Assembly (NCBI RefSeq): GCF_020616595.1
Contig: NZ_CP085278.1
Location: 186,001-250,000, forward strand
DNA from: Lentilactobacillus laojiaonis
Lineage (GTDB): Bacteria; Bacillota; Bacilli; Lactobacillales; Lactobacillaceae
Direction of reading: 5' to 3'
Length of the DNA stretch: 64,000 nucleotides
Of the stretch, positions 5,810 to 9,737 are shown in pieces; position 1 is the first letter of the stretch; every line of letters starts with the position of its first letter. The position numbers and the translations under genes are program-made. The notes beneath the pieces were generated by a model. That model ran no database searches and was not told where the DNA came from. It worked only from the letters and a program-made list of their open reading frames with translations.

Positions 5810-6724
5810 ATGCAAAAAAGTCATAAACTTCATTTAATGGGAACGATTATTACTATCACGATTGAACATGCCGATCCAGAACCGATTTTAGTGGCTGTGG
5901 ATGAATTATTAAAAGAATATGAACATCGCTTCAGTGCAAATGATTATACTTCAGAATTGATGCAAATAACTAAATTTGCTGGTAAACAAGCGGTTAAAGT
6001 TGATGAAAAACTCTATGAATTAATTGAAATTGGAAAAATTTACAGTCAACTACCAAATAGTAATTTAAATATTGCGATTGGACCGTTAGTTCAAACTTGG
6101 CGAATCGGGTTTAAAGATGCTCGGGTGCCAACCGATCAAGAAATTCAACAAAAATTACAATTAACTGATCCGGCTAATATCATTTTAGATGCATATGATA
6201 AATCAGTGTATTTGGCTAACCCCCAAATGACCATTGATTTAGGAGCTTTAGCTAAAGGTTTTATTGCTGACTTAATCATTGAGTATTTAAACCAGCAGCA
6301 AGTTAAAGCAGCCTTAATCAATCTAGGTGGAAACATTGTAGCTTTAGGTAATCCAGTGGGTCGTCCATATTGGCAAATTGGGTTACAAGATCCTAGCCAA
6401 CCTAGAGGGCATTCGCTGGGGACTTTAAAAATAAAGGATCAATCAATTGTAACTTCCGGAATTTACGAACGGCATTTAGAGCAAAATGGTAAATCTTATC
6501 ATCACATCTTTGACGTTAAAACCGGTTATCCAATTCAAACCAACGTAGTAAGTTTGACTATTCTATCACAAAAATCTATTATGGGTGAGGTCTGGACCAC
6601 GATCTTATTTGGTAAGCCAGTCACAAAAATTCTAAAAATCGTCAATCAATTAGAAAATATCGAATGCATTATCGTAACTGATGATGGTAAAGTTTACCAA
6701 TCTAATAAGGAATTGTTAAAATAG
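5810..6724 (+). CDS. apbE: ApbE-type FAD:protein FMN transferase, cytoplasmic form
   Basis: A 304-residue ApbE-family enzyme. The family splits FAD with Mg2+ and links FMN by a phosphoester bond to Thr or Ser of target proteins. Visible are NLGGNI, the DLGALAKG motif (residues 143-150) and HIFDVKTGYP (H232, D235). The Mg2+-site segment usually read as aDaLxTalf is GEVWTTILF here, so Glu seems to stand in for Asp. The N-terminus has no signal peptide or lipobox, so the enzyme should act in the cytoplasm. It sits directly before two FMN-reductase-like genes, one with acceptor-like motifs in its tail. A TGCTATTCT extended -10 at 5770-5778 may be its promoter. Confidence 0.88.
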   Translation: MQKSHKLHLMGTIITITIEHADPEPILVAVDELLKEYEHRFSANDYTSELMQITKFAGKQAVKVDEKLYELIEIGKIYSQLPNSNLNIAIGPLVQTWRIGFKDARVPTDQEIQQKLQLTDPANIILDAYDKSVYLANPQMTIDLGALAKGFIADLIIEYLNQQQVKAALINLGGNIVALGNPVGRPYWQIGLQDPSQPRGHSLGTLKIKDQSIVTSGIYERHLEQNGKSYHHIFDVKTGYPIQTNVVSLTILSQKSIMGEVWTTILFGKPVTKILKIVNQLENIECIIVTDDGKVYQSNKELLK

Positions 6725-6726
6725 TG

Positions 6727-6755
6727 TTGAAATTCACTTTAAAAGCTTTTATTAT
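6727..6755 (+). promoter_or_regulatory. sigma-A promoter of the two FMN reductase genes
   Basis: TTGAAA, 17-base spacer, TATTAT, starting three bases after the apbE stop. The reductase pair can thus be transcribed separately from apbE as well as by read-through, since no terminator lies between. Confidence 0.7.
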
Positions 6756-6815: not shown

Positions 6816-7415
6816 ATGAATAAATTCATCGCATTAGTTGGTACTAATTCCGATAAATCTACCAATCGTAAACTTTTGCAATATATGAAAAACCATTTTG
6901 CTGATAAAGCAGAGCTAGAATTGGTTGAAATTAGAGATATTCCGATATTTGATATGCCGGAAGACATGAAATTACCAGCCATTGTTGAAGAAATTTCTAA
7001 TAAAATCAATGATAGTGATGGAGTGATCATTAGTACTCCCGAGTATGATCACTCGGTTCCAGCTAGTTTATCCAACGCTTTGGCCTGGTTATCATACGGT
7101 AATTACCCATTTGTTAACAAGCCAGTAATGATTACTGGAGCTTCATATGGATCTCTGGGTACTTCAAGAGCCCAAGCTCATTTAAGACAAATTTTAGATG
7201 CTCCTGAATTACATGCTCGAATTATGTCTAGTTCAGAATTTCTTTTAGATCACTCCTTACAAGCATTTGATAATGCCGGTAATCTCACTGATACTAAGGC
7301 TGCCGAAAATTTGGATGATCTATTTGATGACTTTGTTACTTTTGCCGATTTAAATAAACATCTCGACAATAGCAAAGATAAACAAAAAGCCGAATCATTT
7401 AATTGGCAAGCATAA
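6816..7415 (+). CDS. NAD(P)H-dependent FMN reductase family protein
   Basis: A 199-residue flavodoxin-like protein of the NADPH-dependent FMN reductase family (PF03358 type). The N-terminal VGTNSDKSTNRKLL loop corresponds to the FMN phosphate site, STPEYDHSVPASLSNAL to the isoalloxazine-side loop, and GASYGSLGTSRAQ to a third conserved loop. Members use NAD(P)H to reduce flavin or small substrates, or serve as electron-input domains for flavinylated reductases. It is the first of a tandem pair of clearly homologous genes and lacks the acidic motif tail of the second. GGAG stands upstream of the ATG. The substrate is unknown. Confidence 0.85.
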   Translation: MNKFIALVGTNSDKSTNRKLLQYMKNHFADKAELELVEIRDIPIFDMPEDMKLPAIVEEISNKINDSDGVIISTPEYDHSVPASLSNALAWLSYGNYPFVNKPVMITGASYGSLGTSRAQAHLRQILDAPELHARIMSSSEFLLDHSLQAFDNAGNLTDTKAAENLDDLFDDFVTFADLNKHLDNSKDKQKAESFNWQA

Positions 7416-7440: not shown

Positions 7441-8253
7441 ATGAAATTAGTCGGTATTGTTGGTTCAAATTCCACCAAATCATATAACCGCATGTTAATG
7501 AAATATATTGCTGTGCATTTTGATAATATTGCAGAATTAGAAATTTTAGATACTAATGATGTACCACTATTTAACCAAAGCAACAATCAAACTAATAGTG
7601 ATGCAATTCAATTTCTAAATAAGAAAATTTTAGCCGCTGATGGGGTAATTATTGCTACTCCTGAGCATAATCATACGGTTCCAGCTAACTTAAAGAGCTT
7701 AATCGAATGGCTATCTTTTGATATTCATCCCTTTGAAAAGAAACCGGTAATGATTATTGGCGCATCTTATTTTGGTCAAGGAACTTCTAGAGCTCAATTA
7801 CACCTTCGTCAAATTTTAGAAGCCCCCGGAGTAAATGCCTTAACCCTTCCAGGAAATGAATTTTTATTAGCTAATGTAAGAGGTTCATTTGATGAACATG
7901 GTGATCTTAAGGATGAACGTACTAGTGATTTCTTAAAATCAACATTAGAAAAATTTGTTAAATTTGTTAGTGTTATTAAAGCTTTAGATGATGTAGAAGA
8001 CGTCAGTGCCGATGAAAAGGTAACTGAAAGTCCTGCTGAAGAAGATGAAATTGATGCTATGGCTAGTGTTTCTTTAGATGATGAAGAAGAAACTACTCCA
8101 GCTACTAAAGAAGTCGAAGATGATGGCACCGCTAGTGTTTCAATCGACGATGAAGAAGTTGAAGAAAAACCAGTGGAAAAACCAGTTGAAACTAATTCAA
8201 CTGAAAAATCCACCGAAGATGATGCAACAGCTAGTGCTTCTTTAGATTTCTAA
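7441..8253 (+). CDS. NAD(P)H-dependent FMN reductase family protein with acidic triple-motif tail
   Basis: A 270-residue protein. Residues 1-182 are a flavodoxin-like FMN reductase domain close to its upstream neighbour (VGSNSTKSYNR, TPEHNHTVPANLKSLIEWL, GASYFGQGTSRAQ). Residues 183-270 form a low-complexity tail rich in Asp, Glu, Pro and Thr that holds three copies of D-[AG]-[MT]-A-S-[VA]-S-[LI]-D; the last copy forms the very C-terminus except for one Phe. The motif resembles the short ApbE acceptor sequence of kinetoplastid fumarate reductase (DGRSSAS), in which the last Ser carries FMN. With apbE two genes upstream, I infer that this tail may carry up to three covalent FMN groups (S211, S234, S267). 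The function is not proven. Confidence 0.85.
   Translation: MKLVGIVGSNSTKSYNRMLMKYIAVHFDNIAELEILDTNDVPLFNQSNNQTNSDAIQFLNKKILAADGVIIATPEHNHTVPANLKSLIEWLSFDIHPFEKKPVMIIGASYFGQGTSRAQLHLRQILEAPGVNALTLPGNEFLLANVRGSFDEHGDLKDERTSDFLKSTLEKFVKFVSVIKALDDVEDVSADEKVTESPAEEDEIDAMASVSLDDEEETTPATKEVEDDGTASVSIDDEEVEEKPVEKPVETNSTEKSTEDDATASASLDF
8053..8247 (+). repeat. three copies of a putative flavinylation motif
   Basis: Copies encode DAMASVSLD (8053-8079), DGTASVSID (8122-8148) and DATASASLD (8221-8247), at residues 205-213, 228-236 and 261-269. Acidic linkers separate them. The match to an ApbE acceptor is by motif similarity only. Confidence 0.6.
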
Positions 8254-8260
8254 AAAATAA

Positions 8261-8290
8261 AAAGGAATTCCATGATGGAATTCCTTTTTT
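8261..8290. terminator. bidirectional terminator between convergent genes
   Basis: AAAGGAATTCCA-TGA-TGGAATTCCTTT, twelve pairs, with T-rich tails on both strands. It serves the FMN reductase gene on the plus strand and the NADH oxidase gene on the minus strand. Confidence 0.9.
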
Positions 8291-8292
8291 GT

Positions 8293-9636
8293 TTAATTAT
8301 TTTCTTGAGCTTGAGCTGCTTGGCCTAATTCATTTAAGTAGTTAAATGGTCGGTCAAATTGTGGTTGGAATAACATATCAACCATTGCTAAATCGTCAAT
8401 AGTGTTTCCATTTTGGATACATACTGATAAAGTATTAGCTGATTGAGAAATATCATATTCACTTAAGAGTGAACCACCCAAAATTTTGCGGGTGTCAGGA
8501 TTGTAAACTAAGGACATTAAAACAGGAGTAGTGGATTTCATGAATTCCGGACGATAGTTATCTTTTAGAGTAACTTCTTTAGCAGAAATACCAGCTGCTT
8601 TAGCAGCATCTAAAGTTAGTCCCGTTCCAGCAAGATTTAAGTCAAATAGTTTAAGTCCCGATGATGATTGAGTTCCCATGTATTTAACAGTTGGTTTAGA
8701 AATATTTTTACCTACCAAAATACCTTGACGAACTGCATTAGTAGCTAGTGGAATATAGTTGTTACTATGAGTAGGGTTATAGTGTACGGCCACACTGTCA
8801 CCAGCTCCAAAAACATCTGGAACGGAAGTTTGCATGTAGTCGTCGGTGATGATGGCACCATTTGGCATCATATCTAATTGACCCTTGAATAATTCAGTGT
8901 TTGGTTTAAAACCAACGCAAAGAATAACTAAATCCACTTCATATGAGTTTTTATTAGTTTTAACGGTAATAGGAGCATCACCAACTAATTCATTAACTTG
9001 TTCACCTAAGCCTAGGTTAATGTTATGATCGCTAAATTGTTGTTCAATAATTTCGGTAAATTCACCATTATAGTACTTGTTCATGATATGATCACTACCG
9101 TCAATTAAAGTAACTTCGTGTCCGTTACGTTGGTAGGCTTCAGCTAATTCAACCCCGATATAGCCAGCCCCAATAATAGCGACACGTTTTTTGTCGGGTG
9201 AGATTTCAAATAATGTTTTAGCATCGTTCCAGTTTTTACAGAAGTAAACATTATCATTATCCATTCCTTTAATAGGTGGAACAATGGGTAGTGAACCAGT
9301 GGTAATAACTAATTTATCGTATGTATCTGTAAATGAATTGTTATCTTCTAATTTATTAACTGATAAAGTTTTATTTTTAGTGTCTACACTAGTTACTTCA
9401 TGGAGCATTTTAACGTCAGCACCTAGGTCGGCTAACTCTTCGGGACTAGAATAAAATAATCCACTTGGATCATCATTTTTAATTTGACCGCCTAAATATA
9501 AAGCAATTCCGCATGATAAAAATGAAACATTATCGTTACGTTCGTATACAGTAACTTCAGCATCGGGATGCTCTGTTAAAATTTGTTTAATCGCAAATGT
9601 TCCGGCATGAGTACAACCAATTACAACAACCTTCAT
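8293..9636 (-). CDS. nox: NADH oxidase (H2O-forming)
   Basis: A 447-residue FAD/NAD(P)-dependent oxidoreductase of the pyridine nucleotide-disulfide family. The N-terminus MKVVVIGCTHAGT and the redox-active Cys42 in SFLSCGIAL are the marks of H2O-forming NADH oxidases of lactic acid bacteria, which reduce O2 to water and regenerate NAD+. GAGYIGVELAE is the NAD-binding loop, and GAGDSVAV the second FAD contact. The ATG at 9634-9636 is preceded by a GGGGG ribosome site; the longer frame upstream adds 30 residues unlike the family. A CoA-disulfide reductase is the main alternative. A minus-strand TATACT box lies in the upstream gap. Confidence 0.88.
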   Translation of the reverse strand: MKVVVIGCTHAGTFAIKQILTEHPDAEVTVYERNDNVSFLSCGIALYLGGQIKNDDPSGLFYSSPEELADLGADVKMLHEVTSVDTKNKTLSVNKLEDNNSFTDTYDKLVITTGSLPIVPPIKGMDNDNVYFCKNWNDAKTLFEISPDKKRVAIIGAGYIGVELAEAYQRNGHEVTLIDGSDHIMNKYYNGEFTEIIEQQFSDHNINLGLGEQVNELVGDAPITVKTNKNSYEVDLVILCVGFKPNTELFKGQLDMMPNGAIITDDYMQTSVPDVFGAGDSVAVHYNPTHSNNYIPLATNAVRQGILVGKNISKPTVKYMGTQSSSGLKLFDLNLAGTGLTLDAAKAAGISAKEVTLKDNYRPEFMKSTTPVLMSLVYNPDTRKILGGSLLSEYDISQSANTLSVCIQNGNTIDDLAMVDMLFQPQFDRPFNYLNELGQAAQAQENN

Positions 9637-9708
9637 AATAAATCCCCCTAAATTATTTACAATTTTACCATTTAAGTATAACTTACATTTAATAGGTAAT
9701 AAAATAAT

Positions 9709-9737
9709 TTGTTTGTAAATTAACAAGACTGTAATAC
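9709..9737 (+). promoter_or_regulatory. putative sigma-A promoter of the pseudouridine synthase gene
   Basis: TTGTTT, 17-base spacer, TAATAC, in the gap between the divergent nox gene and the synthase gene. Confidence 0.5.

Follow-up and report, generated by a model that had tools for sequence, protein, structure and literature searches.

Flavinylation by ApbE is described, in the available texts of the literature surveyed, mostly for extracytosolic proteins and on folded domains. A flavinylated C-terminal extension on an FMN_red protein has already been published; in the text available, Huang et al. 2024 (PMC11334425) describe apbE-associated FMN_red proteins, mainly from Firmicutes, with one or two motifs on such an extension, and report that two Lactococcus proteins (from L. 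lactis and L. taiwanensis) are flavinylated in E. coli in a Ser/Thr-dependent manner. A separate line of work concerns FRedA/FRedB of Lactobacillus johnsonii, an NADH-oxidising heterodimer with two FMN sites that forms H2O2 (Valladares et al. 2015, PMC4500961). According to the available portions of that paper, FRedA/B has a KD of about 2 uM and purifies with 0.58 FMN per dimer, LjPAS slows the formation of the active FRedA/B and is encoded by an oxygen-responsive gene, and L. plantarum and other species have PAS and reductase in one fused protein, with Lp2732 and EF1227 named in a figure. The words 'ApbE', 'covalent' and 'C-terminal' do not occur in the text of PMC4500961, nor do 'PAS' and 'tail' in that of PMC11334425. 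Among the matches listed in our literature search, outside which subscription papers mostly lay, no paper united ApbE flavinylation with the FRedA/B pair.

We analyzed a window of 64,000 nucleotides of the Lentilactobacillus laojiaonis genome, which, like the FRedA/FRedB system, has two consecutive FMN_red genes. R1 (6816..7415, + strand; 199 aa; Pfam FMN_red, E 5e-35) is a tail-less paralogue that appears FRedA/HcrA-like by its position and sequence, and R2 (7441..8253, + strand; 270 aa; identified from its open reading frame and a Pfam FMN_red match) is tailed and FRedB-like. Upstream of both lies apbE (5810..6724, + strand), which encodes a 304-aa FAD:protein FMN transferase (Pfam ApbE, E 3e-76, residues 10-288); a sequence-only reading of the window had rightly placed this gene two genes upstream of R2 and had described R1 as lacking a tail. 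The apbE product is probably cytosolic, as its ApbE domain starts at residue 10, and the gene looks intact, keeping every residue that is invariant among 95 aligned ApbE sequences in the seven conserved stretches examined. The order apbE, R1, R2 is closed by a bidirectional intrinsic-terminator-like hairpin (8259..8289), which has a 14-bp stem and, on either strand, T-rich sequence after it. Evidence for a promoter-like site in the gap between apbE and the first FMN_red gene (6727..6755, + strand) is weak, since the consensus scan returned 22 sites where shuffled versions of the region gave 15.9 (sd 4.7). An antisense open reading frame at 7809-8213 was rejected as a gene, being a Ser-rich frame opposite the acidic tail. 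Convergent with the module, at 8293-9726 (- strand), is a gene resembling H2O-forming NADH oxidases and CoA-disulfide reductases, with matches below the curated cut-offs; a gene that resembles it by eye is found downstream in 9 of the 79 named loci, which are the best 80 of 535 less L247, dropped from the neighbour count for its fused protein.

The flavodoxin-like FMN_red domain of R2 spans residues 1-185 (7441..7995, + strand), as delimited by the AlphaFold2 model and invariant alignment columns, and the only Pfam matches in the protein are FMN_red and a weaker, overlapping Flavodoxin_2; R2 has no Pfam match to FMN_bind (PF04205) or FAD_binding_2, and none to PAS_10. Residues S9, S14, F44, E75 and S109 are present, the last four of them at positions that match the FMN pocket of FRedA/B as described in the available text of PMC4500961. 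R1 and R2 are counterparts of FRedA/FRedB and probable homologues of HcrA and the N-terminal domain of HcrB.

C-terminal to this domain, residues 183-270 (7987..8250, + strand) form an acidic tail of 88 aa with three copies of the repeat D[AG][MT]AS[VA]S[LI]D, as the sequence-only reading had noticed. The acceptor-like motifs are DAMASVS at residues 205-211 (8053..8073), DGTASVS at 228-234 (8122..8142) and DATASAS at 261-267 (8221..8241), all on the + strand, each followed by L/I-D, and the third lying 3 residues from the C-terminus. Their candidate acceptors, S211, S234 and S267, had been numbered correctly in the R2 translation. The repeats are not a product of chance: none of 200,000 composition-preserving shuffles of the tail contained the 9-residue pattern, and a looser 7-residue pattern was present twice in 48 of them but never three times. 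A degenerate DNA pattern for the repeat has three matches in the 1.24-Mb genome (88.8% complete), all within the R2 tail, and a reversed control pattern has none in the same sequence. An AlphaFold2 model built from a 52-sequence alignment gave a pLDDT of at least 90 for 149 residues, nearly all within residues 1-180, and of about 44-52 for residues 191-270. The tail is thus predicted to be disordered and is probably flexible.

To place the tail among its relatives, homologues were surveyed in a genus sample of 24 genomes and in 397 genomes of the family. The nearest homologues of R2 are mostly longer, with FMN_red followed by PAS_10 (in 8 of the 9 members of group A1) and then the tail. We collected 177 tails, distinct by their last 150 residues and including a few split-gene fragments, each required to match the counting pattern once or more. 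They hold 548 copies of the motif D-x-x-[STA]-[GS]-A-[ST], compared to an average of 14.4 loose copies in shuffled tails, and 379 copies have the strict form D-x-x-[ST]-G-A-[ST]. The number of copies per tail varies from one to seven and is usually three (one in 8 tails, two in 41, three in 74, four in 40 and five to seven in 14). The last copy sits 1-5 residues from the C-terminus in 175/177 tails. The motif is absent from 163 of 164 short FMN_red proteins of the same loci, mostly the tail-less partner, and the sole exception is itself tailed.

Because the counting pattern itself sets the alphabet at positions 1 and 4-7, a fairer measure of conservation leaves one position free while the others are held at consensus. 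Measured this way, position 7 is Ser or Thr in 482/484 copies, position 6 is Ala in 482/486 and position 1 is Asp in 482/497, while no residue exceeds 37% at the flanking positions and the linkers drift. The sequence-only reading had proposed that motif number might vary while the motif stays conserved, with freely drifting Ser residues counting against a role as acceptors; number does vary, and both the motif and its Ser are held. The tail is a real and conserved feature of these sequences, its motifs are strongly supported as acceptors by the comparison, and flavinylation is likely across the tailed FMN_red family. The 177 tails also lend support to the proposal of an ApbE-acceptor array on what would be a mobile arm. 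Two parts of the earlier proposal gave way. The kinetoplastid fumarate reductase acceptor is unneeded and was dropped as the main analogy, as Dxx[ST]GA[ST], the usual motif of bacteria, is present in close relatives. Tails of Bacillus, Lederbergia and Oceanobacillus have the textbook form DAVSGAT...DTVSGAT, and DASTGAS is also found in relatives. Nor is the tail a specific addition in this organism, being widespread in the family; the missing PAS_10 is what differs.

Measured against the strict form, the window copies keep the Asp and the acceptor Ser and deviate at positions 4-6. Positions 4 and 5 are Ala-Ser in every copy, and copies 1 and 2 have an atypical Val at position 6, a residue found there in only 3/548 copies, two of which are these. 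In another protein, according to the available part of the source, G-to-A and A-to-V changes of the motif lowered flavinylation to about 50%. By analogy, the Val in copies 1 and 2 may weaken their loading, so that these two may be loaded in part. Copies of the DxxASAS type recur in other lineages, and copy 3 therefore looks sound; tails with at least two Ala-4 copies number 17/177, that of the window included.

The layout FMN_red-PAS-tail is found in 149/177 tailed proteins. The window protein, L073, L074 and L077 have a tail without PAS, and what is unusual in the window protein is that no PAS_10 stands between reductase and tail, unlike in most relatives. It differs likewise from the FRedA/FRedB-LjPAS system, in that PAS_10 was found neither in the protein nor anywhere in its genome (1.24 Mb of sequence, 88.8% complete). 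The converse arrangement, a tail on PAS alone, occurs in 11 of 14 PAS-only rows and in L269-L271; of the other three rows, L042 and L075 are apparent halves of split genes and L088 has no copy of the motif. In genus g37, genome G059 has separate FRedA/B-like and PAS_10 genes, its PAS protein bears DATTGAT, DTATGAS and DTSSGAS, and the reductase pair has an ApbE gene about 2 kb away in the same orientation; the LjPAS-like protein of G208 has three motifs as well. Some tails depart from these layouts. The PAS tail of L088, from G383, which is counted below as a tail genome, has TGPS/SGPS copies, in which Pro replaces the conserved Ala and which the counting pattern missed; the tail of the LjPAS-like protein of G143, also of genus g37, differs as after a frame change; and in Lentilactobacillus farraginis and Companilactobacillus halodurans (L210, L208) two separate frames make up the tailed gene, through either a true break or a sequencing error.

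The tailed gene keeps the company of R1 and, less uniformly, of apbE. An R1 homologue adjoins it on the same strand in 79/79 named loci (median 16 nt upstream), and 50/79 have apbE in that orientation within the stretch examined; of a second set of 100 tailed genes, 88 have R1 and 37 have apbE nearby, apbE always on the same strand. Across genomes, 119 of 397 were called as tail genomes from the profile matches listed (for some, such as G272, G273, G280 and G304, from the profile match only), and 118/119 have ApbE, as raw counts that ignore kinship; the exception, G273, is 76% complete. FMN_bind is present in 95/119 tail genomes, so ApbE has another substrate in those, and no genome of 199 has FMN_bind without ApbE. 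Within the 198 genomes that lack FMN_bind, a first pass, kinship ignored, found ApbE in 23/24 with a tail versus 31/174 without one. When these 31 ApbE genomes were re-examined, 17 were found to hold a motif tail, four of the remaining 14 matched ApbE weakly (E 1e-4 to 1e-10) and the other ten strongly. In those ten (G133, G135, G293, G300, G310, G317, G345, G354, G390 and G396), neither an FMN_bind match nor a motif tail was found. The re-examination covered ApbE-positive genomes only, and the association rests on the first-pass numbers. One close relative of R2, the 183-aa protein of G171, is tail-less, and ApbE was not detected in that genome. A conjugative-typed plasmid of Enterococcus faecium (AP031222.1; L325) carries a compact cassette of HTH regulator, apbE, FMN_red and FMN_red-PAS_10, the last protein having DAVSSAS/DAVTSAS/DAVSSAS copies.

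The source genome has a second ApbE, at L011:6094-7974 (+ strand), a 626-aa fusion of a complete ApbE with a regulator that resembles LysR by eye. Divergent from it is a 793-aa FMN_red/FAD_binding_2/FMN_bind protein that carries the only FMN_bind match of the genome. Since this second ApbE adjoins the lone FMN_bind protein, the window apbE is left free for the R2 tail, and we rejected the idea that FMN_bind elsewhere is the genome's only ApbE substrate. A fused cousin, built similarly to HcrA/HcrB, is encoded at L326, where an R1-like gene precedes a protein made of an FMN_red domain (58% identical to R2), an FMN_bind-type DAVSGAS and an FAD-binding part, a layout that suggests electron transfer from NADH to covalent FMN to FAD. 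These three domains recur in the 793-aa protein, where FMN_bind comes last.

A candidate for a separate electron acceptor is Frd463, a 463-aa FAD_binding_2 protein that scores above the NCBIfam 'flavocytochrome c' cut-off and has no NADH or FMN_bind domain. In the source genome it follows a class II fumarase, away from the window module, and its family and this neighbour suggest that it is a soluble fumarate-reductase-type flavoprotein. At L159 (G010), one strand carries a fumarase (its C-terminal part), Frd463, a Na_sulph_symp transporter, R1 and R2-PAS-tail, and apbE was not found within that stretch. An FAD_binding_2 neighbour occurs in 14/100 loci and the same-strand 463-aa form in only 4 (L115, L158-L160). 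Frd463 is commoner in tail genomes (116/138) than in others (117/259), kinship ignored. Because 44 genomes have Frd463 but neither tail nor ApbE, we rejected it as an obligatory partner; the pairing of R2 with Frd463 is not obligatory and may be wrong.

On balance we favor the reading that apbE, R1 and tailed R2 form one cytosolic module in which a flavin-carrier arm feeds a second redox protein. As seen in L. johnsonii, R1 and R2 would form a heterodimer whose non-covalent FMN accepts a hydride from NADH. ApbE would join FMN by a phosphoester bond to the final Ser of the motifs in the tail, most readily at the C-terminal copy, and the tethered FMN would be reduced at the shallow pocket of the reductase. 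The reduced arm flavin could then swing or hop to the second redox protein, in place of freely diffusing FMNH2, the likeliest acceptor being Frd463, as operons of other species suggest, while O2 would act as a leak acceptor and yield H2O2. We put forward threefold FMN loading and the relay to a fumarate reductase as hypotheses. A loaded arm would amount to an array of short linear flavin-acceptor motifs along a disordered chain, for which lipoyl and biotinyl swinging arms offer a comparable logic, and would make a candidate NADH donor for those soluble fumarate reductases that have none. A broader version, which we hold tentatively and would not bet on, is a soluble cytosolic flavin wire of Bacilli, in which up to seven ApbE-attached FMN on the disordered arm of an NADH-oxidising FMN_red heterodimer feed separate flavoproteins, soluble fumarate reductase for example, and LjPAS-type proteins supply the same arm in trans. 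If that version is true, the H2O2-forming FRedA/B-LjPAS system would so far have been studied minus its covalent flavins. The carrier-arm reading predicts that PAS/FMN_red proteins made without their cognate ApbE miss part of their cofactor complement.

Alternatively, one tail FMN might be held covalently in the reductase's own pocket, as on a leash, with no relay and with the extra copies as redundancy that makes it likelier for one to be loaded. Huang et al., in the text available, read their proteins in this way, with sites on an unstructured extension near the flavin-binding site (PMC11334425), and a reductase that binds FMN as weakly as FRedA/B (PMC4500961, as available) would be helped by tethering. 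However, 128/177 tails have at least three sites, in contrast to two pockets per heterodimer, PAS sits between reductase and tail in most tailed proteins, and some tails are on PAS alone; we consider the leash unlikely and prefer the mobile carrier arm for its fit to the number of sites and to the PAS-borne tails.

A more pessimistic possibility is that the window tail is a relic in a small genome, its weakened motifs loaded poorly or never, to which the rare Val in two of three copies and the absence of a detected PAS_10 from this 1.24-Mb genome would conform. Yet the adjacent apbE looks intact, the Ser and Asp persist in each of the three copies amid linkers that differ from those of relatives, and the same Ala-4, DxxASAS-type copies are present in other lineages, which together make decay rather improbable. 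The tail FMN might instead be the cofactor of PAS_10, sensing redox state and gating the H2O2-forming reductase. The slowing of active FRedA/B formation by LjPAS and the oxygen response of its gene (PMC4500961, as available) agree with such a sensor, as does the frequency with which PAS_10 and tail occur together, but four tailed proteins without PAS, that of the window among them, leave it very doubtful. Relative to these explanations, the carrier arm remains our preferred reading of the window module.

The module can now be compared to the systems described. Judged from their description, the proteins of Huang et al. (PMC11334425) share with R2 the FMN_red domain (PF03358), an unstructured, motif-bearing C-terminal extension and a nearby apbE; they have one or two motifs, whereas the tails here have one to seven and that of the window three. 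The hydroxycinnamate reductase HcrA/HcrB of L. plantarum (PMC10295242) likewise combines a tail-less FMN_red partner with a second FMN_red domain, but HcrB, as the available text describes it, has its catalytic FAD domain fused, whereas in the window it would be a separate protein. Multi-flavinylated proteins with repeated FMN_bind domains (PMC10339131, as available) bear several covalent FMN per polypeptide, as proposed for R2, though on folded domains instead of short linear motifs in a disordered tail. The engineered Flavin-tag (Tong et al. 2021, as reported in the available text of PMC12052999) indicates that a 7-residue motif is sufficient and works best at a protein terminus; it is a single engineered tag, whereas the R2 tail would be a natural array. 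The comparison links two fields that are separate in the literature searched, ApbE flavinylation and the H2O2-making NADH:FMN reductase pair of lactobacilli. What is new is a tailed FMN_red with more sites than reported, up to seven, and its link to the FRedA/B-LjPAS system, together with the PAS-plus-tail proteins and, in some relatives, an operon that also encodes a possible soluble partner resembling fumarate reductase.
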